Positions 4,213 through 14,610 of a DNA stretch of 14,610 nucleotides are shown piece by piece. The notes beneath the pieces were generated by a model, which saw only the letters and a program-made list of their open reading frames with translations, did not search any database and was not told the DNA's origin. How positions within the stretch are numbered: the first letter of the stretch is position 1; the number at the start of each line of letters is the position of its first letter. Source of the DNA: Acidimicrobiales bacterium (lineage in GTDB: Bacteria > Actinomycetota > Acidimicrobiia > Acidimicrobiales > UBA8190); assembly GCA_030042575.1 (NCBI GenBank), contig JASHZK010000266.1:1-14610 (forward strand), written 5' to 3'. Made by a program: the position numbers and the translations under genes.

Positions 4213-4264
4213 TCAGGTATTGCCGCTCACCAAGGTGGGAGCGCCTGTGGACGGCGGCGATCGC

Positions 4265-5446
4265 TCATGCGTCTCTCGTCGTCATCCGCCAGGCGCCCAG
4301 CACCGTCCAGCCCACGAGCCAGGCCACGATGACGATCACGCTCACGAATCGCGGTTCGGGGACGAGTTGGCGCATGCCCGGGCCCCCACTGAACGGCAGC
4401 GGGAGCCCCCCCGGCTCGATATGAGCCATGGCCAGGCCGACCACGGCGCGTTCGAGGTTGATCAGATGGGCGATCACGTGCACGGAGAAGATCGGGGTCA
4501 GGATGATCTCGAGCACGATCATGAGGATCACCGGTACGGTCCGCTGTCCCATCAGGGACGCCAGGCCCAGGCCCACGACGAGTCCGATGACCGCCTCGAG
4601 CTCGAGCCAGAGCCCGGTCCTCACCATGAGCGAGGTGGGCGGAAACAGGAACTGTCCGCTGTAGTCCGTGTAGTTCTGCCGGGCGATCTGCACGGCCTGG
4701 GCGCGGAGTTCGCTCGGCGTGCAGGGCGAGGCCGGCTGGGGGGCAGACTGGCCCACGGCCCCCCCGCTCTTCTGGATGATCACCCCACCTCCGGGTCCTC
4801 CGCCCACGCAGGAGGGACTCACCGGCGGGTTCGCCGGTGAGAAGTCGATGGCGAAGTTGTTGATCACCTCCTGGGGATGGTGGGAGGCAAAGGCCTCGAG
4901 GCCGGCCCGGGAGAGCCCGACGGGGACGTGCACGCCGTCGTATTCGAAAGATGTGGGAGCGGCAAAGACGCACACGGCGCAGACGACGGCAAAGCCGATG
5001 GCCACCAAGGGCGCCACGATGGCCAACCCGGCGGGGATGCGAGCGAGGTAGAGCGCCGTTCGGGAGCGGCCGGTGATCACATGGTGGCGGAACATCCCTT
5101 CGGTGAGATCGGCGGATCCCGCCGTGGCCCCCAGCGTGGCGGCGACGATGAAGCCGAAGGTGTACATCACCCCGGCGACGAGGCCGGTGTAGACGTCGTA
5201 GCCCCCGGCCGGTCCATAGGTCTTCGGAGCGAAGGCGTGGGTGAGCAGGCGCACCAGGAGGAAGATTGTCGGGATCCCGATGTTCACCACGACCAGCGTG
5301 ATCATGAGGCCCCGGCGCTTGCGCAGTTCCTTGAACTTGGCGCTGATCATGGCTCGGTTGGGGACCCAGGAGCCCCGGTGGTCGGGGGGCGCCGCCAGGT
5401 TGCGCAACGGGCCGACCGGCGCCGATGTGTCGGTGACCGTCGTCAT
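4265..5446 (-). CDS. ABC transporter permease (ABC-2 type), 393 aa
   Basis: The start is set at the ATG at 5446-5444, which overlaps the ATPase stop (ATGA) and has a GGGAGA Shine-Dalgarno sequence upstream; the longer open frame to 5485 has no such support. The N-terminus is cytoplasmic ('FKELRKRRGLM'), followed by about six membrane segments: 'LVVVNIGIPTIFLLVRLL', 'GLVAGVMYTFGFIVAATLG', 'IVAPLVAIGFAVVCAVCVF', 'AVIGLVVGLGLASLMG', 'ILMIVLEIILTPIFSV' and 'VIVIVAWLVGWTVLGAW'. A large outer loop between segments three and four is rich in Gly, Pro and Ser and has two Cys ('SCVGGGPGGG' and 'SPCTPSEL'). This fits the membrane half of a BcrA/DrrA-type exporter. It is the last gene of the PadR operon and converges with the SDR gene across a 52-base gap. 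Confidence 0.88.
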   Translation of the reverse strand: MTTVTDTSAPVGPLRNLAAPPDHRGSWVPNRAMISAKFKELRKRRGLMITLVVVNIGIPTIFLLVRLLTHAFAPKTYGPAGGYDVYTGLVAGVMYTFGFIVAATLGATAGSADLTEGMFRHHVITGRSRTALYLARIPAGLAIVAPLVAIGFAVVCAVCVFAAPTSFEYDGVHVPVGLSRAGLEAFASHHPQEVINNFAIDFSPANPPVSPSCVGGGPGGGVIIQKSGGAVGQSAPQPASPCTPSELRAQAVQIARQNYTDYSGQFLFPPTSLMVRTGLWLELEAVIGLVVGLGLASLMGQRTVPVILMIVLEIILTPIFSVHVIAHLINLERAVVGLAMAHIEPGGLPLPFSGGPGMRQLVPEPRFVSVIVIVAWLVGWTVLGAWRMTTRDA

Positions 5447-6420
5447 TCGGGCTCTCCCAACCGGCTGGTGACCTGCAAGAACCACGACTCGAGGCTCGCC
5501 TGCACGGGCTGCAAGCGGTAGAGGGCGATGCCACTTTCCACCAGGAGGCGGCTGATCTCGGCGACCACCGCTCGTCCGGTCCCCGAGGGCAGGGTGACGT
5601 CCAGCCCCGCCGGTTGGGCGGTGATCTGCGCGCCCATCCCCGCCTGTTCGACGAGCCCCCGGGCCCGATCAGGTTCCGAGCACTCGATCTGCAGGACCAC
5701 AGACGTGCCGGCCAAAAGCTCCGAGATCGGTCCCTGTCGAATGACCTTGCCGCGGTCGACGATGGCCACGGCGTCACAGGTGCGCTCGACCTCGTCGAGG
5801 AGATGGGAGGAGAGCACCACCGTCCTGCCCTCGCCGACGAGGGCGGTGATCATCTCCCTCATGTCGTGTATGCCGGCGGGGTCGAGCCCGTTCATCGGTT
5901 CGTCGAGCAGCAGGAGCTCGGGATCGGCGAGGAGACAGGCGGCCACCCCGAGGCGCTGGCGCATACCCATGGAGTACTTCGCCACTTTGTCGTCGGCCCG
6001 CTGAGCCAGCCCCACGCGCTCGAGTGCCGGACCGATGCGTTGGCGCGCCGCCTGCTCACGCGAGCTCGCCAGCATCTCCAGGTTCTGCCTGCCCGTCAGG
6101 TGGCTGTGGAAGCGGGGCTCGTCGACGATGGCGCCCACCCTGGCCAGGGCCCTGGCCCGCTCCTTGGGAAGGCGGTGGCCCAGCATGGACATGGTGCCGG
6201 CGTCGGCGTGCGTCAGCCCCAACAAGACCCTGATGAGGGTGGTCTTGCCGGCACCGTTGGGGCCCAGGTAACCGAAGGCGCAGGCTCGGGGCACGAGCAG
6301 TTCCACGCCGTCGACGGCGACGTTGTCACCGAACCGCTTGGTCAGTCCGTGGGTCTCCACGGCCCAGTCACGGCCGGCCGGTGCGTCGCCGAGCACTGGA
6401 GCGAGGGTTGTGGAGCTCAT
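5443..6420 (-). CDS. ABC transporter ATP-binding protein, 325 aa
   Basis: The start is the ATG at 6420-6418 ('MSSTTLAPV'); the frame stays open to 7239 but runs there through the membrane-protein and PadR genes. Walker A 'GPNGAGKT' is at 53-60, the signature 'YSMGMRQRLGVA' at 149-160, Walker B 'LLLLDEPMNGLDP' ending near 181 and the H-loop 'SSHLLDE' with His206. The Q-loop region reads 'VGAIVDEPRFHSHLTGRQNL', the variant usual in BcrA/DrrA-type exporters. The last 80 residues form the small C-terminal domain typical of this subfamily. It energises the permease encoded immediately downstream, overlapping it by four bases. The upstream membrane protein stops 29 bases before; the ribosome site is weak (GAAAGAA). 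Confidence 0.95.
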   Translation of the reverse strand: MSSTTLAPVLGDAPAGRDWAVETHGLTKRFGDNVAVDGVELLVPRACAFGYLGPNGAGKTTLIRVLLGLTHADAGTMSMLGHRLPKERARALARVGAIVDEPRFHSHLTGRQNLEMLASSREQAARQRIGPALERVGLAQRADDKVAKYSMGMRQRLGVAACLLADPELLLLDEPMNGLDPAGIHDMREMITALVGEGRTVVLSSHLLDEVERTCDAVAIVDRGKVIRQGPISELLAGTSVVLQIECSEPDRARGLVEQAGMGAQITAQPAGLDVTLPSGTGRAVVAEISRLLVESGIALYRLQPVQASLESWFLQVTSRLGEPE

Positions 6421-6449
6421 TGGATTCTTTCGTGAGTCGGCTTGGCTGG

Positions 6450-7028
6450 TCAGAGGTAGCTCGGCAACCCCACGCTGTCGTCGAAACCGCGCCGGCGGCG
6501 CCGGGTGGCCCACGGCCTCCACAGCCACAGCGTCAAGGCCAAGCCGATGAGACCTGCGGCCACGAAGAGCAGCCCCACGACGGCGAACACCGCGCTGTGG
6601 GAGAAGGCGACGGGACTGGGCAGGTTCGGCCCGATGAAGACCCCATGAGGGCCTCCGAATGGGCTGGCGGAGATGTGGCCGATCGACACCCGGGCGACAG
6701 AGGCCTGGCGGCCGCCGCCGAGGGCGGCCAAGCCCCCCAGCGTGACCACGAAGGACACGGCGGCCAGGAGCACGAGGGCCCAACGAGACCAGCGGGGTCT
6801 TTCCTGGGGTCGCTTGGCGCCGGGGACGACGCCCCGGGCCGAGGCCCACGACGCGGCAAACGACCGGGCGTCGAAAAAGCCGTTGCCGAGCACCGCCTCC
6901 GGGGACACGCCTTCGGCTTGGGCCTCGGCCAGATCCGCCTCCAAGTCGGCGGCCATCTCGCCTGCGACCGCATCGGGGACGCCGAGCCGCCTCCACTCTT
7001 TGCGACACTCGTCGACGAAGCGGAGCAT
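6450..7028 (-). CDS. Small membrane protein with HAAS-like N-terminus, 192 aa
   Basis: The start is the ATG at 7028-7026, which shares one base with the PadR stop (TGATG); an AGAGGTGG Shine-Dalgarno sequence lies in the end of the PadR gene. The N-terminal 60 residues ('FVDECRKEWRRLGVPDAVAGEM... DLEADLAEAQAEGVSPEAVLG') resemble the helical HAAS/permease-prefix domain that commonly follows PadR regulators. Two membrane segments follow: 'WALVLLAAVSFVVTLGGLAAL' near 100-120 and 'VFAVVGLLFVAAGLIGLALTLWLW' near 145-170, with a basic tail 'RRRRRG'. The outer loop between them is about 30 residues. Proteins of this kind are thought to act with the PadR regulator or the exporter, but no biochemical role is known to me. 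Family assignment is from pattern and context. Confidence 0.75.
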   Translation of the reverse strand: MLRFVDECRKEWRRLGVPDAVAGEMAADLEADLAEAQAEGVSPEAVLGNGFFDARSFAASWASARGVVPGAKRPQERPRWSRWALVLLAAVSFVVTLGGLAALGGGRQASVARVSIGHISASPFGGPHGVFIGPNLPSPVAFSHSAVFAVVGLLFVAAGLIGLALTLWLWRPWATRRRRRGFDDSVGLPSYL

Positions 7029-7378
7029 CAACCCACCTCTTCTTTGATCCGACCCAACACGGAGTCGACGGCCTCCCGCGTCGCCTGCCACTCGGAGATG
7101 CCGGCTGCCAAGGCCTTCCTGCCCTGGCGCGACAGGCTGTAGTACTTGCGGGGCGGGCCCCCGTTGCTGATGGCTCGGCGGGTGTCGACCAGGCCGTCGC
7201 GCTCGAGTCTTCCCAGAAGCGGGTAGATCGAGCCCTCACCGACGATCGACAGGCCGCGAGCGGCGAGGCGCTTGGTCATCTCGTAGCCATAGGCGGCGCC
7301 TTCGTCCATCACGGCCAGGAGGCACAGGTCGAGGACGCCCCGCAGGAGCTGGCTCCTGCGGCTCCCGGGCACTGCCAT
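7028..7378 (-). CDS. PadR-family transcriptional regulator, 116 aa
   Basis: A compact winged-helix regulator: 'LLRGVLDLCLLAVMDEG', 'AYGYEMTKRLAARG', 'GEGSIYPLLGRLERDGLVDTR' and 'GGPPRKYYSLSRQGRKAL' are the conserved PadR blocks, and the C-terminal helix for dimerisation is short (PadR-s2 size). Three in-frame ATG codons exist (7414, 7387, 7378). The one at 7378 is chosen because the promoter -10 box ends seven bases upstream, so transcription would begin at or one base before it; the other two fall inside the promoter. It is the first gene of a four-gene operon with the HAAS-like protein, ATPase and permease, and most likely represses this exporter until a compound is bound. The inducer is unknown. 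Confidence 0.92.
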   Translation of the reverse strand: MAVPGSRRSQLLRGVLDLCLLAVMDEGAAYGYEMTKRLAARGLSIVGEGSIYPLLGRLERDGLVDTRRAISNGGPPRKYYSLSRQGRKALAAGISEWQATREAVDSVLGRIKEEVG

Positions 7379-7385
7379 GCGAAGC

Positions 7386-7414
7386 ATGATAGCGGAACGT
7401 ATCTTGCCATGCAA
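7386..7414 (-). promoter_or_regulatory. Promoter of the PadR-ABC operon, probably leaderless
   Basis: On the minus strand TTGCAT (7414-7409) and TATCAT (7391-7386) are separated by exactly 17 bases. The predicted +1 falls at 7379 or 7378, which is the A of the ATG chosen for the PadR gene. A leaderless mRNA, common in actinobacteria, is therefore likely. No Shine-Dalgarno sequence is present in front of that ATG, in agreement. Confidence 0.65.
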
Positions 7415-7528: not shown

Positions 7529-7906
7529 TCAACATGACCGACCTTCGAGGGCGCTGCGGGCGATGTCTCGCACGTTGAACGGTGCCGTCACCGCCAGTGC
7601 CTCCAGCCAGGTCCGAAGTGGTGATGCGCCTACGATCCTGATCACGCTGCGCAGCGCCTCGGCGCGCACGTAGATGTCGGGTCCGAACTCGGCCGCCACT
7701 CGAAGCGCCGGTACCGCTTCTCGTGCATGCAGCATCCCCAGGGTCTTGGCTGCTGTCACCGCCCGGTCGCCGTCGGGATGCCTCAGCGCCCAGACCAGTC
7801 CGTCCGTACGGGAGAGATCGTCAGGGGGTTCGACGGGCTGGTGGCAGACTACGCACGGGCCTCTCGGTTGGTCGTTCAGCGCGTAACAGTGAAAGCACCA
7901 GAACAC
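7529..7906 (-). CDS. Zinc-ribbon plus HEAT-repeat protein, 125 aa
   Basis: The frame opens with GTG at 7906-7904 and is preceded in frame by TGA at 7918-7916. Residues 4-21 form a likely zinc-binding knuckle: Cys4-x2-Cys7-x10-Cys18-x2-Cys21. From about residue 36 there are two to three HEAT/PBS-lyase-type helical repeats ('AVTAAKTLGMLHAREAVPALRVAAEF', 'YVRAEALRSVIRIVG'). Such short HEAT proteins act as protein-binding adaptors. It is the last gene of the run that begins with the hydrogenase-like operon, so a helper role in assembly or regulation of that complex is possible but not shown. The ribosome site is poor (GAGAGA about 17 bases upstream), and the upstream mini-frame of 16 codons starting at an ATGA overlap (7963) may couple translation. 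I see no clear terminator hairpin in the 150 bases between it and the PadR start. Confidence 0.72.
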   Translation of the reverse strand: MFWCFHCYALNDQPRGPCVVCHQPVEPPDDLSRTDGLVWALRHPDGDRAVTAAKTLGMLHAREAVPALRVAAEFGPDIYVRAEALRSVIRIVGASPLRTWLEALAVTAPFNVRDIARSALEGRSC

Positions 7907-8385: not shown

Positions 8386-10413
8386 CTACCTCATCGTCGC
8401 CACGATCACCAGGAGGACCAACAAGGCGACGAGCATGTAGCCGACGTAGGCGTCGAGTCGTCCCGACTGCAGGCGTTTGGTTCCCGTGGCCAGCCACAGC
8501 CAGACGGCCCGGGCTGGGCGGTACAGGTAGGCCAGCACGGGCTCTACCACCATCGTCTCCACAGCCACGTGGCCGTGGAGGTCCTCGTCTGCCTCGGGTT
8601 CGACGTGGACGAGGCTGCGGCGCGATCCCAGGACGTTCGACAGCACGTGGCGGAGCACGTTGGCGTACCCGAAGGCGCTGTACTCGTCGGCCCCGGCCAC
8701 TCCGGACGTGGCCGAGCGCCATGCCGGCACCCGTCGTACCCGCAGCAGGCCACGGCGGGACAAGACCACCGTGGCCGACGTGACCGTGGCGAAGGCGATG
8801 GGCATGACCACGAAGAGCCACGACGGCGACAGGATCGAGAAATCCGGGAATACCGGTTGGAGCACCCAGGGCGAGCGCAGCGCCGAGAGCGCCGTGTGTC
8901 CGCCGAGCACGACGGCCAGGCCCCGGCCCAGGTACCGGATCACCCATGGAGCAGCCGCCGACAGGGCCAGACAGGGGAGGGCCAGCAGCCCGAGCCCGAG
9001 GACGCCGAGGGGATTTCTGTCGTCGGCCGAACGCGGGTGCGTCGTCTCGGGCGACCGTCCGAGGACGGTGAGCCCGATGAGCCGGATGAAGGCCAGGGCG
9101 GCCAGGCCCAGGCTCAGCGCCACCAGGGCACCGGCGAAGGCCATCGACAGGCGGACGGCGAGCTGGTGGACGCGGAATTCCTGCAGCAGTGCCTCGAGCA
9201 TGAACCATTCCGACACGAAGCCGATCGTCGGTGGCAGTCCGGCCATGGTGAGCGAGCCGAGGCCGAATGCCGCTCCGCTCACGGGATGCCGGCGCCCGAT
9301 CCCCCGCAGCGTCTCGAGGTCGTCTGTGCCGAAGTCGGATTCCACGAAGGCCGAGGCGCCGAAGAGGGCGGATTTGGCGACTGCATGGGCCAGGATCTGG
9401 AGGCTGGCGGCCAGCAGCCCCACCGCCGCCACCCCCGGGTGGCCCGTCGCCTCCCCGGCGAGTGCCACGCCGTAGCCGACGAGGATGAGGCCGGCGTTCT
9501 CGACACTCGAGTAGGCGACGACCCGGTTGAGCCGGCCCTGTACCGCCCCGAAGGCGATACCTCCGAAAGCGGTGAGGCCACCGATCACCAGCACGGCCAC
9601 GGCCAGCCACAGTGGTGGCGCACCCAGGATCCCGAGGAAGCGCCACAGTCCGTAGAACCCGACGTTGGCGGCCAGGCCGGCCATGGCGGCCCGGGCCGGG
9701 CCGGGGGCGGCCGGGTACCCCGAGGGGAGCCACACGTGGAAGGGAACCAGCCCGACCTTGGCCGCGCATCCGACCACGACGAGAGCGAAGGCGGCGTCGG
9801 TGGTGGGGGAGTGCGCCAGGTGGTGCCAAGCCGACAGCGAGGTGCTGTGAGCCTTCCCGCTCAGCAGCAGGAAGCCGATCAGCAGGGCGCCGCCGCCGAC
9901 CTTGCCGATGCCGAGGGTGAGCCAGCTGGCTCGGCGCGTCCCGGGCTGTCGGCGCTGGATGCTGGTGAGCGCGTAGAAACCGAGGGTCAGCGCCTCCCAG
10001 GCGAAGAGGAAGGTGAAGGCGTCAGCCGCCAGCACGATCACCGTGACGGCACCGAGGACGAGCAGGTAGGCGGCGGCTGTGGCGTGGCCCCGTACTCTGT
10101 CGGGAGGAAGCGCCCAGGCGACGAAGCAACTCGATATGGCCACGCCGAGACCACCGGTGAGGGTGAGAAAGAGCCCGGCCAGGGGATCGAGCTGGACCAG
10201 GGTGTGGTCCACGGCGAGGGTCGTGCCCAGATCGAAGACGTGCCGGGCGCCGAGGACGCTTCTCACCCCCACGGCGCACACCAGGGCGCTACCGACGGCA
10301 CCCGCCCCATATGGAGCCAGGCGCCCCCATCGCCGTCGCGCCCCCACGAGCAGGTCGACGCCGGCTCCGGCGGCCCAGACCGCCAAGGCGGCGATCAGGA
10401 GGACGCCGTTCAT
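8386..10413 (-). CDS. hyfB: HyfB/HycC-like proton-translocating membrane subunit, 675 aa
   Basis: The ATG at 10413 overlaps the stop of the ferredoxin-NuoB fusion (ATGA), with GGAGGA four bases upstream. Many membrane helices and the Proton_antipo_M core are evident; 675 residues is the HyfB size (hydrogenase-4 component B), larger than NuoL-like subunits of Mrp type. Charged residues of the antiporter half-channels are present: Glu140 ('FAWEALTLGFYALT'), Lys219 and His226 ('AKVGLVPFHVWLP'), Lys347 ('HAVAKSALFGASAF') and Glu402 ('GFVSEWFMLEALL'). A C-terminal extension after 'GADEYSAFGYANVLRHVL' ends in one more helix, as in HyfB. In the family it moves protons (or Na+) driven by redox chemistry in the peripheral arm. 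Here that arm lacks its usual cofactor ligands, so the driving reaction is unclear. Confidence 0.9.
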   Translation of the reverse strand: MNGVLLIAALAVWAAGAGVDLLVGARRRWGRLAPYGAGAVGSALVCAVGVRSVLGARHVFDLGTTLAVDHTLVQLDPLAGLFLTLTGGLGVAISSCFVAWALPPDRVRGHATAAAYLLVLGAVTVIVLAADAFTFLFAWEALTLGFYALTSIQRRQPGTRRASWLTLGIGKVGGGALLIGFLLLSGKAHSTSLSAWHHLAHSPTTDAAFALVVVGCAAKVGLVPFHVWLPSGYPAAPGPARAAMAGLAANVGFYGLWRFLGILGAPPLWLAVAVLVIGGLTAFGGIAFGAVQGRLNRVVAYSSVENAGLILVGYGVALAGEATGHPGVAAVGLLAASLQILAHAVAKSALFGASAFVESDFGTDDLETLRGIGRRHPVSGAAFGLGSLTMAGLPPTIGFVSEWFMLEALLQEFRVHQLAVRLSMAFAGALVALSLGLAALAFIRLIGLTVLGRSPETTHPRSADDRNPLGVLGLGLLALPCLALSAAAPWVIRYLGRGLAVVLGGHTALSALRSPWVLQPVFPDFSILSPSWLFVVMPIAFATVTSATVVLSRRGLLRVRRVPAWRSATSGVAGADEYSAFGYANVLRHVLSNVLGSRRSLVHVEPEADEDLHGHVAVETMVVEPVLAYLYRPARAVWLWLATGTKRLQSGRLDAYVGYMLVALLVLLVIVATMR

Positions 10414-11222
10414 CTCGTCCTCCGATCGTCCGGGAGCAGTCCCAGCGCCAAAAGCAGGCCATGGAGGAGGCTGAAGGGGCTCGGGGGCGACCCTGGGACG
10501 TACACGTCGGGCGGGACGAGCGCCCCGATCCCGCCCAGCGACGCATAGGTGGGCCCCACCAGGCCGCCGCTGACGGCGTCGGTGCCGGCGGCCACGAGGA
10601 CCTTCGGGTCGGGCATCGCCTCCAAGGTCCGTCGCAGCTCCTCGGTCATCCCGGCCGTGCCCACCCCGGTGACGAGGAGGATGTCGGCATGGCGCGGGCT
10701 GGCGGTGAAGAACATGCCCAAGCGCTGTATGTCGTAGATCGGTCCGGTGAGCGCCGAGATCTCGGCCTCCTCGGCGCCGTCGGATCCGCCGTCGACATGA
10801 CGGATGTGGATGGAGCGGCGCAGACCACGCACGCGGCGGGCGAGCTCGGACCGGACGGCACGGGTCTCCTCCTCGGTTCCCGGGCTCGGCGGTACCACCA
10901 GTGCTGTTCGGGTCAGGCCGGCCGTCTCGGTGTCGGGCACGAAGGCGAAGAGGTCAGGTCGACCTTCGACACAGCGGCCGCACAAGATGCAGCGTCCCCG
11001 GTCGACGCGCACCGTCTGGGCCGAGTCGTCGTCCACGAAGATCGCCCCCGTCGGGCACAGTCCTGCCGGTATCTCGGGGTCACCACCGGTCTGTCGGTCC
11101 ACGGCCGGTGCCGGCGAGAGCACGGTGATCGCCCCGTCGAACAAGGCGCCGTAGCCGTCTGGACGCCGGGGATAACGGGTCGTGACGACGCCGTCGCGCA
11201 GTCCTCGCAGCACCCACGGCAT
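10410..11222 (-). CDS. Ferredoxin-NuoB/HycG-like fusion, N2 cysteines absent, 270 aa
   Basis: The start is the ATG at 11222-11220 ('MPWVLRGLRDGVVTTRYP', a conserved opening of HyfH-like ferredoxins); it shares one base with the HyfG-like stop (TGATG). Residues 1-95 are a ferredoxin domain with Cys56 ('CPTGAI') and Cys78, Cys81, Cys84 ('CILCGRC'). The first CxxCxxC triplet is missing and the last cysteine of the second motif is Arg88, so exactly one [4Fe-4S] site can form. Residues 138-260 align with NuoB/HycG ('HVDGGSDGAEE', 'YDIQRLGMFFTASPRHADILLVTG', 'PDPKVLVAAGTDA', 'VYVPGSPPSPF'). All four cysteines of the N2-like cluster are replaced: Asp148, Glu151, Asp215 and Ser245. In relatives this subunit passes electrons to the NiFe or quinone site; here that path appears lost. 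The fusion order is ferredoxin first. Confidence 0.88.
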   Translation of the reverse strand: MPWVLRGLRDGVVTTRYPRRPDGYGALFDGAITVLSPAPAVDRQTGGDPEIPAGLCPTGAIFVDDDSAQTVRVDRGRCILCGRCVEGRPDLFAFVPDTETAGLTRTALVVPPSPGTEEETRAVRSELARRVRGLRRSIHIRHVDGGSDGAEEAEISALTGPIYDIQRLGMFFTASPRHADILLVTGVGTAGMTEELRRTLEAMPDPKVLVAAGTDAVSGGLVGPTYASLGGIGALVPPDVYVPGSPPSPFSLLHGLLLALGLLPDDRRTR

Positions 11223-12712
11223 CAGCCCGAGACCCCCGCCATGGAAAGGCCGAAGCTGGCCTCGATGAAGACGAAATCGGTGAAGATGTCGCCCCGGAAC
11301 GCTTCGTGGAAGATCGCCAAATTGTGGAACGAGGCGGTGCGAGGCTTCACCCTCGTGAGCCGTCCCTCGGTGACCTCGACGAGGTAGAGCAGCTCGCCCT
11401 GGGGCGCCTCCACGGAACTGAGCACGCTGCCGTCCACAACCGGTGTGGGCCGTCGCCATTCGTCGTCCGACGTCTCGTCGAGTTCGTCCAGGGCCTGGCG
11501 CACGAGATGAAGGGCCTGTCCGATCTCGTCCAGGCGGACGCGCTGGCGGGCCAGGGCGTCCCCCTCCCGATGACCGGTGGCCACCTCGAAGCCGAGGTGG
11601 CCGTAGGCGCCGTAGGGGCGGTCGGCGCGGACGTCGCCGGGGAGGCCGGACCCACGGCCCACCGGACCGACGGCCCCGTGGTCCGTGGCCACCTGGGTCG
11701 GAACGGCGCCCGTTCCCCGCAGGCGGTCCAAGAAGGACGGGGTCGTCATCAAGGCGTGGAGGTCGGCGCGCAGGGCTCCCTGCAGGGCGCCGAGCTCTCC
11801 GTTCGCCTCGCTCGGGGCCAGACGCGGTGGGCCCGACACCCCTCCGGGGACGACCACCCCGCGACCGAAGCGATGGCCGCACAGTCTCGCCCGGAGTCGC
11901 ATGAGCCGCTCCTTGTGCACGTGCAGGCGGGCATTGGCCACCGCCTGACCGGCGCCCTCGGTGTGGCGGATGACCGAGTCGAGATGGGTGGCGATCCGCT
12001 CCAGCTCGGCATGTGCGACCCGCAGCAGCGCCGCGGGGCGAGGAACGGAGATGTCGGCCAGTTGCTCGAGCGCCTGGGAGAAGGCGAGGGCGTGAGCGAC
12101 GGTGGCGGTGCCCTCGACACGCTCGGCCAGCAGCACCGCATCGGCCGGCTCCAGGTCCTGGAACCGCCGTTCGATCCCCCGGTGCTTGTGGTACACCCGC
12201 GTGCGGAGGTGCGGGATCTCCTCGCCCACCGTCTCTACCAGGTACTCGACGGCCTCGAAGACACCTGAGCGCACGGGCCCATAGGGGATGGTGAAGACGC
12301 CCTGTCCGACGACGTGGGCGGGGAGACCGGTCACGTCGAGCTCGACCGAGACCGGCCCCCTCCGTGCGCCAGGCCGGGGCAGATCCTCACCCGACCGGGG
12401 CAGCACCAGGGGGTCGAGGCGACGATGACCGCTCGGCACCAGGCCGAACAGGTCGTGGATCTCCCGCTCGTACCACGCCGCCGCCGCCACCAGCGGGGTG
12501 AGGGCCGGGTACGAGCGGACGCCGGGGGGAAGTTGGCAGGCGAGAACCGTGAGGTCCCGGTCGGAGGCCAGGACCGCCTGGAGCGCCGTGGAGCCGTCGT
12601 CGGCGGCCGTGGCCACAAGAGCGACGAAGCGCCGGCCGGACCGGACCTCCTGAGCGACCGCCTCGGCCAGCTCTTGCGGAGCCATCCGCACGGTGAGGGC
12701 GGCGCCCGTCAC
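11222..12712 (-). CDS. HyfG/HycE-like (NuoC-NuoD) large subunit without NiFe ligands, 496 aa
   Basis: The GTG at 12712-12710 overlaps the HyfF-like stop (GTGA); an ATG nine codons later is an alternative. Residues 1-115 are the NuoC-like 30-kDa domain ('YPALTPLVAAAAWYEREIHDLFGL'). Residues 135-496 match the hydrogenase large subunit/NuoD domain ('YGPVRSGVFEAVEYLVETVGEEI', 'RVYHKHRGIERRF'). The L1 motif, normally RVCGIC, reads R198-V-E-G-T-A203, and the C-terminal SLDPCxxC reads S486-F-G-L-S-M-A-G493. All four NiFe-binding cysteines are thus replaced (Glu200, Ala203, Ser490, Gly493), while the flanking sequence aligns without gaps. It cannot be a hydrogenase of the known type. This is the mark of the energy-converting-hydrogenase-related (Ehr) group, to which I recall the Mycobacterium tuberculosis Rv0082-Rv0087 proteins belong. 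The chain ends three residues after the L2-equivalent motif. Confidence 0.9.
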   Translation of the reverse strand: MTGAALTVRMAPQELAEAVAQEVRSGRRFVALVATAADDGSTALQAVLASDRDLTVLACQLPPGVRSYPALTPLVAAAAWYEREIHDLFGLVPSGHRRLDPLVLPRSGEDLPRPGARRGPVSVELDVTGLPAHVVGQGVFTIPYGPVRSGVFEAVEYLVETVGEEIPHLRTRVYHKHRGIERRFQDLEPADAVLLAERVEGTATVAHALAFSQALEQLADISVPRPAALLRVAHAELERIATHLDSVIRHTEGAGQAVANARLHVHKERLMRLRARLCGHRFGRGVVVPGGVSGPPRLAPSEANGELGALQGALRADLHALMTTPSFLDRLRGTGAVPTQVATDHGAVGPVGRGSGLPGDVRADRPYGAYGHLGFEVATGHREGDALARQRVRLDEIGQALHLVRQALDELDETSDDEWRRPTPVVDGSVLSSVEAPQGELLYLVEVTEGRLTRVKPRTASFHNLAIFHEAFRGDIFTDFVFIEASFGLSMAGVSG

Positions 12713-14142
12713 CGCAGCTCCCGGGCGGCCCGAGTGAGGAGGTCCGACAGCTGGCCGGGGGGATGGACACCGAGGACGGCCAGGGCCACCAGGCCGAGGA
12801 GCATGGCCATCACGATCCAGCGGCTCGTCTCCCCCCGGACGGCGCCCTCGGGCGCCGTTCCCAACATGGCCTGTCCGGCGAACCACGTGAGGCCGAAGGT
12901 CCCCAGGGTGACGAGGACCACGAGCACGGCGACCACGGCGTCGCGCGGGTCCGACAGCCCTCCGGAAACGATCAGGAACTCGCTTCGGAAGATGCCGAAA
13001 GGCGGCATGGCGCAGAGCCCGAGCACGGCCAGGACCAGCATGGGACCGCTCCAGGGCAGCAGCCCGATCCCACCTCGCATCCGCCCGATCTCCTTGGTGC
13101 CGAACTTGCGTATGGCGCTGCCGGCACCGAAGAAGGCCGTGCCCTTGGCCGCGGCGTGGGCCAGCACGTGGAGCAACACCCCCACGACGGCGATCGGGGC
13201 GGAGAAGCTCATGCCGATGGCGACGACGCCCATGTGCTCGATGCTCGAATAGGCGAAGAGGCGTTTGAGGTCTCGCTGGTTGGCCAGGTACAGCGCGGCC
13301 AGCCCCAGTGAGGCCAAGCCGAAGCCGAGCATGACGTTGCGGGGGAACACCGGACCGATGGCGCCCACGGCGACCTGGTAGAAGCGCAAGATGGCGTAGA
13401 AGCTCACGGCCAGAAGCGATCCGGAGAGCATGGCTGACACCGGAGTGGGCGCCTCCGAGTGGGCGTCAGGCAGCCAGGTGTGGACCGGGACCAGCCCCAT
13501 CTTCGTCCCGTAGCCCAGCACGGCCAGGACGAAGGCAAGGCGGACCATCTGGGGCGGGAGGTGGCCGGCGGCGCTCAAGAGCTTGGGGTAGAAGAGCTCG
13601 TAGGACCCCCCGAGCACCGTGGAACCGGCGTAGTACATGACGACGGTGGCGAACAGGGCGATGCCCAGTCCCATCGAGGCGATGATCACGTACTTCCAGG
13701 CGGCCTCGGCCGCCCCGTCGGTGTCGTCGATGGCCACGAGCAGTGCCGAGACGATAGTGGTCACCTCCACGGCCACCCACAGCAAGGCCAGACCGTTCAC
13801 GAGGGGAGCCATGACCATGGCCCAGGCGAAGACGTTCAGCCCGGCGAAGAAACGCCGGCGATAGCGCGTCCCCTCCTCGGCCCGGACGTAGCCGACGGCG
13901 AACACGGCGGTGGAGAAGTAGAGGAAGGTCACCGCCAGCAAGAAGACGACGGACAACGAGTCGACCCGGAGCCAGCCCGACAGCGCCGTCGTCGTCGACG
14001 CCGGCACCAGCGCCACGGCCATGACGAACGTGACGGCGCTGCTGGCCAGGGTCAGACTCTGGCCCACTCGGACCGGAGCCCACCACGAGAGCAGGCTGGC
14101 GACCGGCGGCACGGCCAGGAGCACGAGCAGGTCCCAGCCCAC
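12709..14142 (-). CDS. hyfF: HyfF-like proton-translocating membrane subunit, 477 aa
   Basis: The GTG at 14142-14140 lies one base after the HyfE-like stop. The protein is almost entirely membrane helices with the Proton_antipo_M core. Conserved residues are visible: Glu126 ('LLWVAVEVTTI'), Lys150 ('AWKYVIIASMG'), Lys214 and His221 ('GTKMGLVPVHTWLPDAHSEAPTPVSAMLSG' region), Lys333 ('LAHAAAKGTAFFGAG') and Glu388 ('FGIFRSEF'). Glu126 instead of the non-charged residue of inactive paralogues, together with the two lysines, indicates a working half-channel pair. Length is slightly below the Escherichia coli HyfF value of about 526. 'YSSIEHMGVVAIG' is the usual HyfF/MrpD signature after helix eight. 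Its stop overlaps the start of the HyfG-like gene, so translation is coupled to the peripheral arm subunits. Confidence 0.92.
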   Translation of the reverse strand: MGWDLLVLLAVPPVASLLSWWAPVRVGQSLTLASSAVTFVMAVALVPASTTTALSGWLRVDSLSVVFLLAVTFLYFSTAVFAVGYVRAEEGTRYRRRFFAGLNVFAWAMVMAPLVNGLALLWVAVEVTTIVSALLVAIDDTDGAAEAAWKYVIIASMGLGIALFATVVMYYAGSTVLGGSYELFYPKLLSAAGHLPPQMVRLAFVLAVLGYGTKMGLVPVHTWLPDAHSEAPTPVSAMLSGSLLAVSFYAILRFYQVAVGAIGPVFPRNVMLGFGLASLGLAALYLANQRDLKRLFAYSSIEHMGVVAIGMSFSAPIAVVGVLLHVLAHAAAKGTAFFGAGSAIRKFGTKEIGRMRGGIGLLPWSGPMLVLAVLGLCAMPPFGIFRSEFLIVSGGLSDPRDAVVAVLVVLVTLGTFGLTWFAGQAMLGTAPEGAVRGETSRWIVMAMLLGLVALAVLGVHPPGQLSDLLTRAARELR

Positions 14143-14143
14143 T

Positions 14144-14610
14144 TCAGCCCCGCAGCCGATCGAGCACTTCGGTGGACAGGGTCTGGGTCCGGCCGTGGTG
14201 GACGCGGATCAGGACACCGAACACGACCACGGCGACGAGCAGGTCGAACAGGAAGGCCACCTCCAAGATGAGCGGGAGTCCGGCGGCCAGGACGACGCTC
14301 GCCAGTGACACCCCGTTCTCCAGCGAGAAGAACCCGACGGCTTGGGAGACGACGTCGGAACGCAGGATCACCAGGAGGAAGGCGACGAGGATCACCGCCG
14401 CCGCCAGCCCCAGCGTGGGAGCAGGCAGCGTCCGGGAGTGGACGGGGAGGCTGCCCACGACGAAGAAGCCGACGGCGGCGGCCACCAGCCCGAGGAGGAT
14501 CATGGAGGCGATGCCGAGTCGGTGGCTCCCGACCAGGTCGACGCGTTCCTCTCGCAACAGGCGGAGCATGATCCGCGGCACGGCCACCACCTTGAGCGTG
14601 AAGGCGAGCG
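14144..14610 (-). CDS. hyfE: HyfE-like membrane subunit (5' end outside the window)
   Basis: The frame stays open to the window edge: the codons before the GTG at 14590 read 'LAFTLK', the end of a membrane helix in HyfE, so the start lies beyond 14610. About 155 residues are visible of a usual 215 or so. Segments near 'ASMILLGLVAAAVGFFVVG', 'LGLAAAVILVAFLLVIL' and 'LPLILEVAFLFDLLVAVVVFGVLI' are membrane helices. The NuoK-type acidic residues are present: Glu91 in 'FFSLENGVSLA', Glu110 and Asp116 (counted from the GTG at 14590). In the family it links the antiporter subunits to the NuoH-like anchor. A NuoH-like (HyfC/HycD) subunit is absent from the visible operon and would be expected just upstream. 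Confidence 0.88.
   Translation of the reverse strand, partial: LAFTLKVVAVPRIMLRLLREERVDLVGSHRLGIASMILLGLVAAAVGFFVVGSLPVHSRTLPAPTLGLAAAVILVAFLLVILRSDVVSQAVGFFSLENGVSLASVVLAAGLPLILEVAFLFDLLVAVVVFGVLIRVHHGRTQTLSTEVLDRLRG

Follow-up and report, generated by a model that had tools for sequence, protein, structure and literature searches.

An actinobacterial ferredoxin-NuoB fusion with one cluster site and no N2 ligands, from an operon type whose relatives carry fluoride-riboswitch-type leaders

The window analysed here is a 14,610-nucleotide stretch from an Acidimicrobiales bacterium (assembly GCA_030042575.1, contig JASHZK010000266.1) and is the whole of contig C7 of a fragmented metagenome-assembled genome (MAG; 2.39 Mb, 422 contigs, 58.9% complete). 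Its minus strand carries an operon of the complex I family in which a ferredoxin is fused to NuoB. The fusion keeps the ligands of one ferredoxin cluster and none of those of the N2 cluster; in addition, and beyond what a first, sequence-only reading of this DNA had described, the NiFe ligands of the large subunit are gone and there is a link between the operon family and fluoride riboswitches. The reading that we place just on the probable side of even is that the fusion is the small peripheral subunit of a complex-I-family complex that lacks N2 and NiFe ligands, has predicted fluoride riboswitches ahead of its relatives' operons, and would work as a fluoride-induced proton or cation translocator. 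The parts of the fusion that matter to the argument are these:

10410..11222, minus strand, stop codon included: ferredoxin-NuoB fusion of 270 amino acids, translation starting MPWVLRG (Pfam, homologues and alignment to solved chains)
10971..11057, minus strand: lone four-cysteine [4Fe-4S] site, codons 56-84 (C56, C78, C81, C84; all four in 120/120 homologue rows)
10770..10781, minus strand: D148 and E151 replacing the N2 CxxC, codons 148-151 (alignment to solved chains)
10578..10580, minus strand: Asp215 replacing the third N2 cysteine, codon 215 (alignment to solved chains)
10488..10490, minus strand: Ser245 replacing the fourth N2 cysteine, within PGSPP, codon 245 (alignment to solved chains)

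The fusion has four cysteines in all, at positions 56, 78, 81 and 84, exactly those that the sequence-only reading had named in the ferredoxin part. They are the fourth cysteine of ferredoxin motif 1 plus the CxxCxxC of motif 2, a set which we take to be the ligands of one crossed cluster. Pfam places Oxidored_q6 and Fer4_15 above their cut-offs and Fer4_13 and Fer4 slightly below them, the predicted structure (predicted local distance difference test score, pLDDT, 73) supports the NuoB fold and nothing beyond it, and one source labels such proteins 'Ni,Fe-hydrogenase III small subunit/ferredoxin'. In alignments to solved chains, D148, E151, D215 and S245 take the places of the four cysteines in HycG (7z0s_G) and MbhJ (6cfw_J), in agreement with the N2 replacements first reported.

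That reading had also taken the all-or-none pattern as a mark of selection and had proposed a survey of homologues. Among the best 120 of 5013 matches from a search limited to 7999 candidates (query included; the others are 60-73% identical to it), all four ferredoxin cysteines, D148, D215 and S245 are kept in 120/120 rows, position 151 holds E (106), D (10), A (2) or V (2), and an N2 cysteine occurs in 0/120, so both the inferred selection and the picture of a complex with one Fe-S cluster site and no N2 are borne out in this set. Close relatives with a full N2 set, which were to have pointed to recent decay or sequence error, do exist: a sister family, found by searching with a paralogue from this MAG (contig C389), has the four N2 cysteines in 121/121 rows (the query and its database copy among them). 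The proposed consequence did not hold, since in a tree of 49 rows picked from the N2-less, sister and other sets (midpoint root) the 18 N2-less rows and the 10 sister rows form separate groups, each being one side of a branch at 100/99. On these comparisons, the N2-less pattern of the fusion is not the product of decay or sequence error. A close homologue, P0091, carries the label of a Thermoplasmata archaeon; it comes from a MAG, on a partial contig of 1187 bases, and may be a binning error.

In the same tree a larger group, which we call the fluoride clade, comprises 36 rows that a 97/96 branch separates from the rest, and N2 is found in it in full, partial and absent states. Four N2 cysteines are present in the sister family, L120 and L122; L121 and L123 have three, with Asn at the fourth position; L116-L119 have two at the usual first positions, shifted cysteines close to the third, and a fourth position occupied by Ser; and the window's group, L087 and L136 have none. 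Wherever a ferredoxin of the clade was read, it shows the one-cluster pattern (the 120 rows, L087, L120-L123, L136, L141, L142, L015, L077 and L155), the ferredoxins of other sister proteins lying outside this count. That the lone cluster site stays while N2 fades is our main ground for supposing that the complex can do without electrons at the old N2 site, and the pattern argues against the lone cluster as a simple wire to that site; a regulatory or structural role is possible. Two further observations belong here. L137 and L138 (genomes G337 and G438) have T/C/D/D at the N2 positions, fall in a separate NuoB group outside the fluoride clade, and have no riboswitch on the contig; theirs is thus a further partial loss of N2. 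In L015 and L077 a single DNA stretch carries both an N2-less and an N2-complete operon.

The operon reads, in order, HyfE-like, HyfF-like, NuoCD-like, fusion and HyfB-like:

14144..14590, minus strand: HyfE-like membrane subunit (NCBIfam hydrogenase 4 membrane subunit at 54.4 bits, below its cut-off of 136; place in the operon conserved)
12709..14142, minus strand: HyfF-like antiporter subunit (Pfam, NCBIfam and solved-chain matches)
11222..12886, minus strand: NuoCD/HycE-like large subunit without NiFe ligands, exact start unsure (Pfam and alignment)
8386..10413, minus strand: HyfB-like antiporter subunit (Pfam, NCBIfam and solved-chain matches)

In relatives, with genes placed by homology, the order is NuoH-HyfE-HyfF-NuoCD-FdNuoB-HyfB, where NuoH is PF00146 and FdNuoB the fusion. 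The large subunit has RVEGTATVAH in place of the RVCGICGFAH of HycE, and in the alignment the C-terminal CxxC is absent. Across the 79 large subunits that were read (loci L004-L083, >44% identity), Glu stands at the position of the first NiFe cysteine in 78 (one is unaligned), and the position of the second holds A in 67, S in 4, V in 3, L in 2, T in 1 and C in 1 (again one unaligned). A hydrogenase or formate hydrogenlyase (FHL) identity was rejected because these ligands are missing. The 49-kDa motif GPQHPAAH, whose His we take to belong to the quinone site, aligns to GPVRSGVF; a single-sequence model of the subunit (pLDDT 37) was too poor for use. For the two antiporter-like subunits, transmembrane helices (TM) were labelled with the help of alignment to solved antiporter chains. 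The HyfB-like subunit retains the TM5 Glu, TM7 Lys, TM11 His and Lys, and TM12 Glu in 73/73 cases, and the HyfF-like subunit has the TM5 Glu and TM7 Lys in 67/67 aligned sequences (four are unaligned) and the TM12 Glu in 71/71; by these residues the membrane arm looks maintained.

The leader was studied in loci of the N2-less family (the best 80 of 195 from a scan of named genomes), all 80 of which bear actinobacterial names, Streptomyces, Amycolatopsis, Leifsonia and Actinocatenispora among them. Four of the seven loci given to Rfam (L041, L079, L024 and L022) have the fluoride riboswitch, RF01734, above its gathering score 5' of NuoH, and L027 likewise has an RF01734 match. A model made from nine Rfam-called aptamers was run over 82 sources in which 60 NuoH starts had been located by motif, and a same-strand match lies at most 450 nt from the NuoH start in 54/60 (E below 0.05 in 35, 0.05-0.53 in 12 and 0.7-3.7 in 7). 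A motif consisting of four P1 pairs and the core adds three starts, which puts an element before NuoH in 57/60, many of them weak singly; the remaining three (L016, L031 and L038) show, by eye, a degenerate form. The motif alone is found at 48/60 NuoH starts vs 42 of 5554 other sequence windows from these loci (riboswitches belonging to other genes are among them) and 0/1200 shuffles. When elements were picked without requiring pairing, 52 were found (3 of them ambiguous) and none at 8 starts; all four P1 pairs form in 49/49 unambiguous elements (196/196 cells, against a maximum of 156 in 2000 column shuffles), and P1 co-varies, its pairs switching among C-G, G-C, U-A and A-U. Downstream of the core, a strand able to form at least 7 pairs (G-U allowed) with the Shine-Dalgarno region is present in 43/53 cases vs 7.6% of shuffles, which suggests that the element acts through translational control; a stricter test, demanding exact complements in the region that follows the aptamer, found 9/56. 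Leaders of acidimicrobial loci, L005:5352-5431 and L009:5308-5376 for example, often show a variant form of the aptamer in which P1 is CCGG/CCGG and the inserts are longer.

The association was also examined in a blind sample. A sample of the class, 120 genomes with the sister NuoB as query, returned mostly ordinary NuoB-like scores, and therefore a stricter phylum sample was used: 396 genomes, 26 of which match the sister NuoB at E <= 1e-32, and 25 of these (own genome excluded) were searched with RF01734. Ten of these fall, by sequence, in the fluoride clade, and in 8/10 an over-cut-off riboswitch shares contig and strand with NuoB and lies 5-7 kb upstream of it; six of the eight stretches (L141-L146) were read as far as NuoH. 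As to the other two, G067 is the genome of locus L038, and G180 has a leader with the motif. None of the 10 genomes with a HycG-like or related NuoB and a two-cluster ferredoxin has a riboswitch on the contig of its NuoB (in two of them sub-cut-off matches lie elsewhere), nor does any of the 5 remaining genomes (G438 has two elsewhere). In G369 a riboswitch heads a dynamin-like GTPase gene with NuoH directly after it, and just upstream another heads CrcB and a DUF190-like gene.

The MAG of the window has a second operon of the same clade (L155, G000:C389:1-6786), which is N2-complete and has its one-cluster ferredoxin as a separate, unfused gene. Directly 5' of its NuoH, at L155:6207-6273 on the minus strand, is a sub-cut-off fluoride match (21.9 bits, E 0.012); C389 has no other Rfam match up to E 2. 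Two more fluoride matches in the MAG, at 33.9 bits (cut-off 34), precede genes that read as universal-stress-like and MutS-like. In L015, too, the N2-complete operon beside the N2-less one lies behind a sub-cut-off match (23.3 bits).

Having two antiporter subunits plus NuoH, and no N2 or NiFe ligands, the complex fits a fluoride-induced ion translocator. Hydrogen fluoride (HF) would diffuse into the cell and release H+ and F-, acidifying the cytoplasm, and fluoride would switch translation of the operon on. Ions would then move by secondary transport, as in Mrp, and not by means of electrons flowing along the former N2/NiFe route, the complex helping to restore pH or membrane energy during HF stress; the lone cluster would be structural or regulatory and not a wire. 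From the retained TM charges we infer that translocation may proceed by Mrp-like exchange without redox cofactors, one cluster site remaining. Passages of PMC11139923 tie fluoride stress to acidification and give Na+/H+ antiporters as the next most common fluoride-riboswitch targets after exporters.

Several observations weigh against this proposal. The contig ends before NuoH, so the start of the window's operon and its own leader lie outside the sequence, and fluoride control of this operon is for that reason something we infer; when its NuoH and riboswitch were sought in the MAG contigs, only the paralogous operon on C389 turned up. In the relatives, 19 of the 54 model matches have E >0.05 and rest on position, and the acidimicrobial elements are mostly below the Rfam cut-off of 34 (L009 24.5, L005 21.7 and L004 19.6 bits). 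The TM8 Lys is replaced in both antiporter-like subunits. In HyfB it has become Asn in 72/73 (Thr in one) and likewise in 7/7 other fluoride-clade operons, compared with Lys in 3/4 control operons; in HyfF it is mostly Ala, and since just 1/4 controls has Lys there, that subunit is not distinctive. The HyfF TM5 Glu is absent from 4/7 other fluoride-clade operons, and together with the TM8 replacements this means that the ion path may be non-standard. The sister family retains N2 (121/121), so some members may still do redox work, and exporters such as CrcB are present in 29/50 carriers, so the role of the complex is not unique.

Other explanations account for parts of the same evidence. We judge it unlikely that the complex is a redox enzyme with another acceptor, in which the lone cluster passes single ferredoxin electrons to a partner or to a new cofactor in the Asp/Glu/Asp/Ser pocket; the invariance of the four-cysteine site and the carboxylates conserved at the N2 positions, as a metal site might be, would suit such an enzyme, but the NiFe ligands are lost, the 49-kDa motif (with its quinone role) is changed, and N2 is partial or absent in several lineages. 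A sensor of redox state or iron-sulfur damage that gates the complex's ion channel, a regulatory role near the idea of the sequence-only reading, has a small chance in our view, smaller than either the redox enzyme or the exporter discussed below: the cluster site outlasts N2 across the clade, but it could be purely structural. Recent decay, assembly error or a pseudogene we hold to be next to impossible. The MAG is fragmented and incomplete and contains an N2-complete paralogue, but the same residues recur in every listed row, the frame is open, the operon conserved and the group supported; decay or error was rejected as contradicted by the homologue set.

That the complex is itself a fluoride exporter seems rather improbable to us. 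In that case a clade of complex-I-type machines would have been turned into exporters that fluoride switches on. Its membrane arm, freed from N2/NiFe redox chemistry, would couple F- efflux to protons or sodium via the antiporter-like subunits and NuoH, and it is in favour of this that CrcB is missing from 21/50 carrier entries (G067 and G493 being the same genome) and from 6/10 carriers with known completeness of at least 93%. Moreover, 4 of 22 CrcB-less entries (own MAG included) are also without CLC (G206, G226, G235 and G003), the first three being 96-99% complete and of one genus, so that on the exporter reading some near-complete genomes carry the complex with neither Fluc nor CLC. The window's own MAG yielded no CrcB, which at its completeness says little. 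Against an exporter are the 29 carriers that do have CrcB, and some CLC, of the fluoride type or otherwise, in 18 of the 22 CrcB-less entries, in a search that covered CrcB and CLC; furthermore, we know of no F- site in the protein family of the complex.

The fluoride-linked neighbourhood includes other genes. Among the best 150 model matches, some at places other than the operon lie before genes for MutS-like proteins (15), CrcB (6), DUF190 (6), dynamin-like GTPases (6), phosphoglycerate-mutase-like proteins (3) and enolase (1), with 43 before no named cluster; MutS, DUF190 and dynamin were assigned by Pfam on single examples, CrcB by PF02537, and enolase and the mutase by reading. Riboswitch-headed MutS-like pairs, CrcB, DUF190, enolase and the dynamin-like GTPase cluster around the operon in L041, L079, L022, L039, L144 and others. 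In the window itself, 7529-7906 (minus strand) encodes a small protein whose sequence suggests a zinc ribbon and HEAT repeats and which has homologues in the fluoride-linked stretches L169, L035 and L079; beyond the operon, at 4227-7414 (minus strand), a PadR-type regulator (PF03551) stands beside open reading frames resembling an ABC-transporter ATPase and permease.

Reports of 'formate hydrogen lyase' genes behind fluoride riboswitches go back to 2010, and in the passages concerned these genes are a common target (PMC2864571, PMC11139923). The actinobacterial complexes read here are without NiFe ligands, and the printed name therefore does not fit them; the name is set against actinobacterial complexes only, and the exact genes meant in print may differ. 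A literature search over titles and the openings of abstracts showed no paper that joins the fluoride-riboswitch 'formate hydrogen lyase' with NiFe-less or N2-less complexes. The riboswitch-FHL link and the NiFe-less Ehr complexes are in print already; within the scope of that search, their joining and the loss of N2 appear to be new. An FHL under a fluoride riboswitch is hard to square with an aerobic life like that of Streptomyces and Amycolatopsis, and ligand loss in the riboswitch-linked actinobacterial complexes turns this puzzle into an idea, that of a fluoride-stress ion machine. Natural relatives of complex I with full, partial and no N2 should help to show to what extent the membrane arm can work without electron flow.

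A redox chain down to N2 is usually expected of Ehr complexes. It is absent from the definition printed in the passages of PMC6349859, which describe them as group-4-hydrogenase-like, with Mrp-type antiporter parts and without NiFe ligands. The window's complex resembles them in its group-4-hydrogenase-like set (HyfB, HyfF, HyfE, NuoCD and NuoB in the window, NuoH in relatives) and in having no NiFe-coordinating cysteines; it differs in having no N2 cysteines, one ferredoxin cluster site, a ferredoxin fused ahead of NuoB, and a fluoride-type leader in its relatives. With FHL and hydrogenase-4 (Hyc, Hyf) it shares the kind of membrane subunit and the closest solved chains, HycG for the small, HycE for the large and HycC for the HyfB-like subunit, whereas the NiFe ligands, N2 and the second ferredoxin cluster site are all absent here. 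NuoB, NuoCD, NuoH and the antiporter folds are common to it and respiratory complex I, from which it is set apart by the missing N2 cysteines, the altered 49-kDa GPQHPAAH and the absence of an NADH module from the conserved operon genes. Finally, its antiporter subunits are homologous to those of the Mrp Na+/H+ antiporters (matches 6z16, 7qru and 7d3u); redox-free exchange is the analogy proposed here, although, unlike Mrp, this complex also has NuoH, NuoCD, NuoB and ferredoxin parts.

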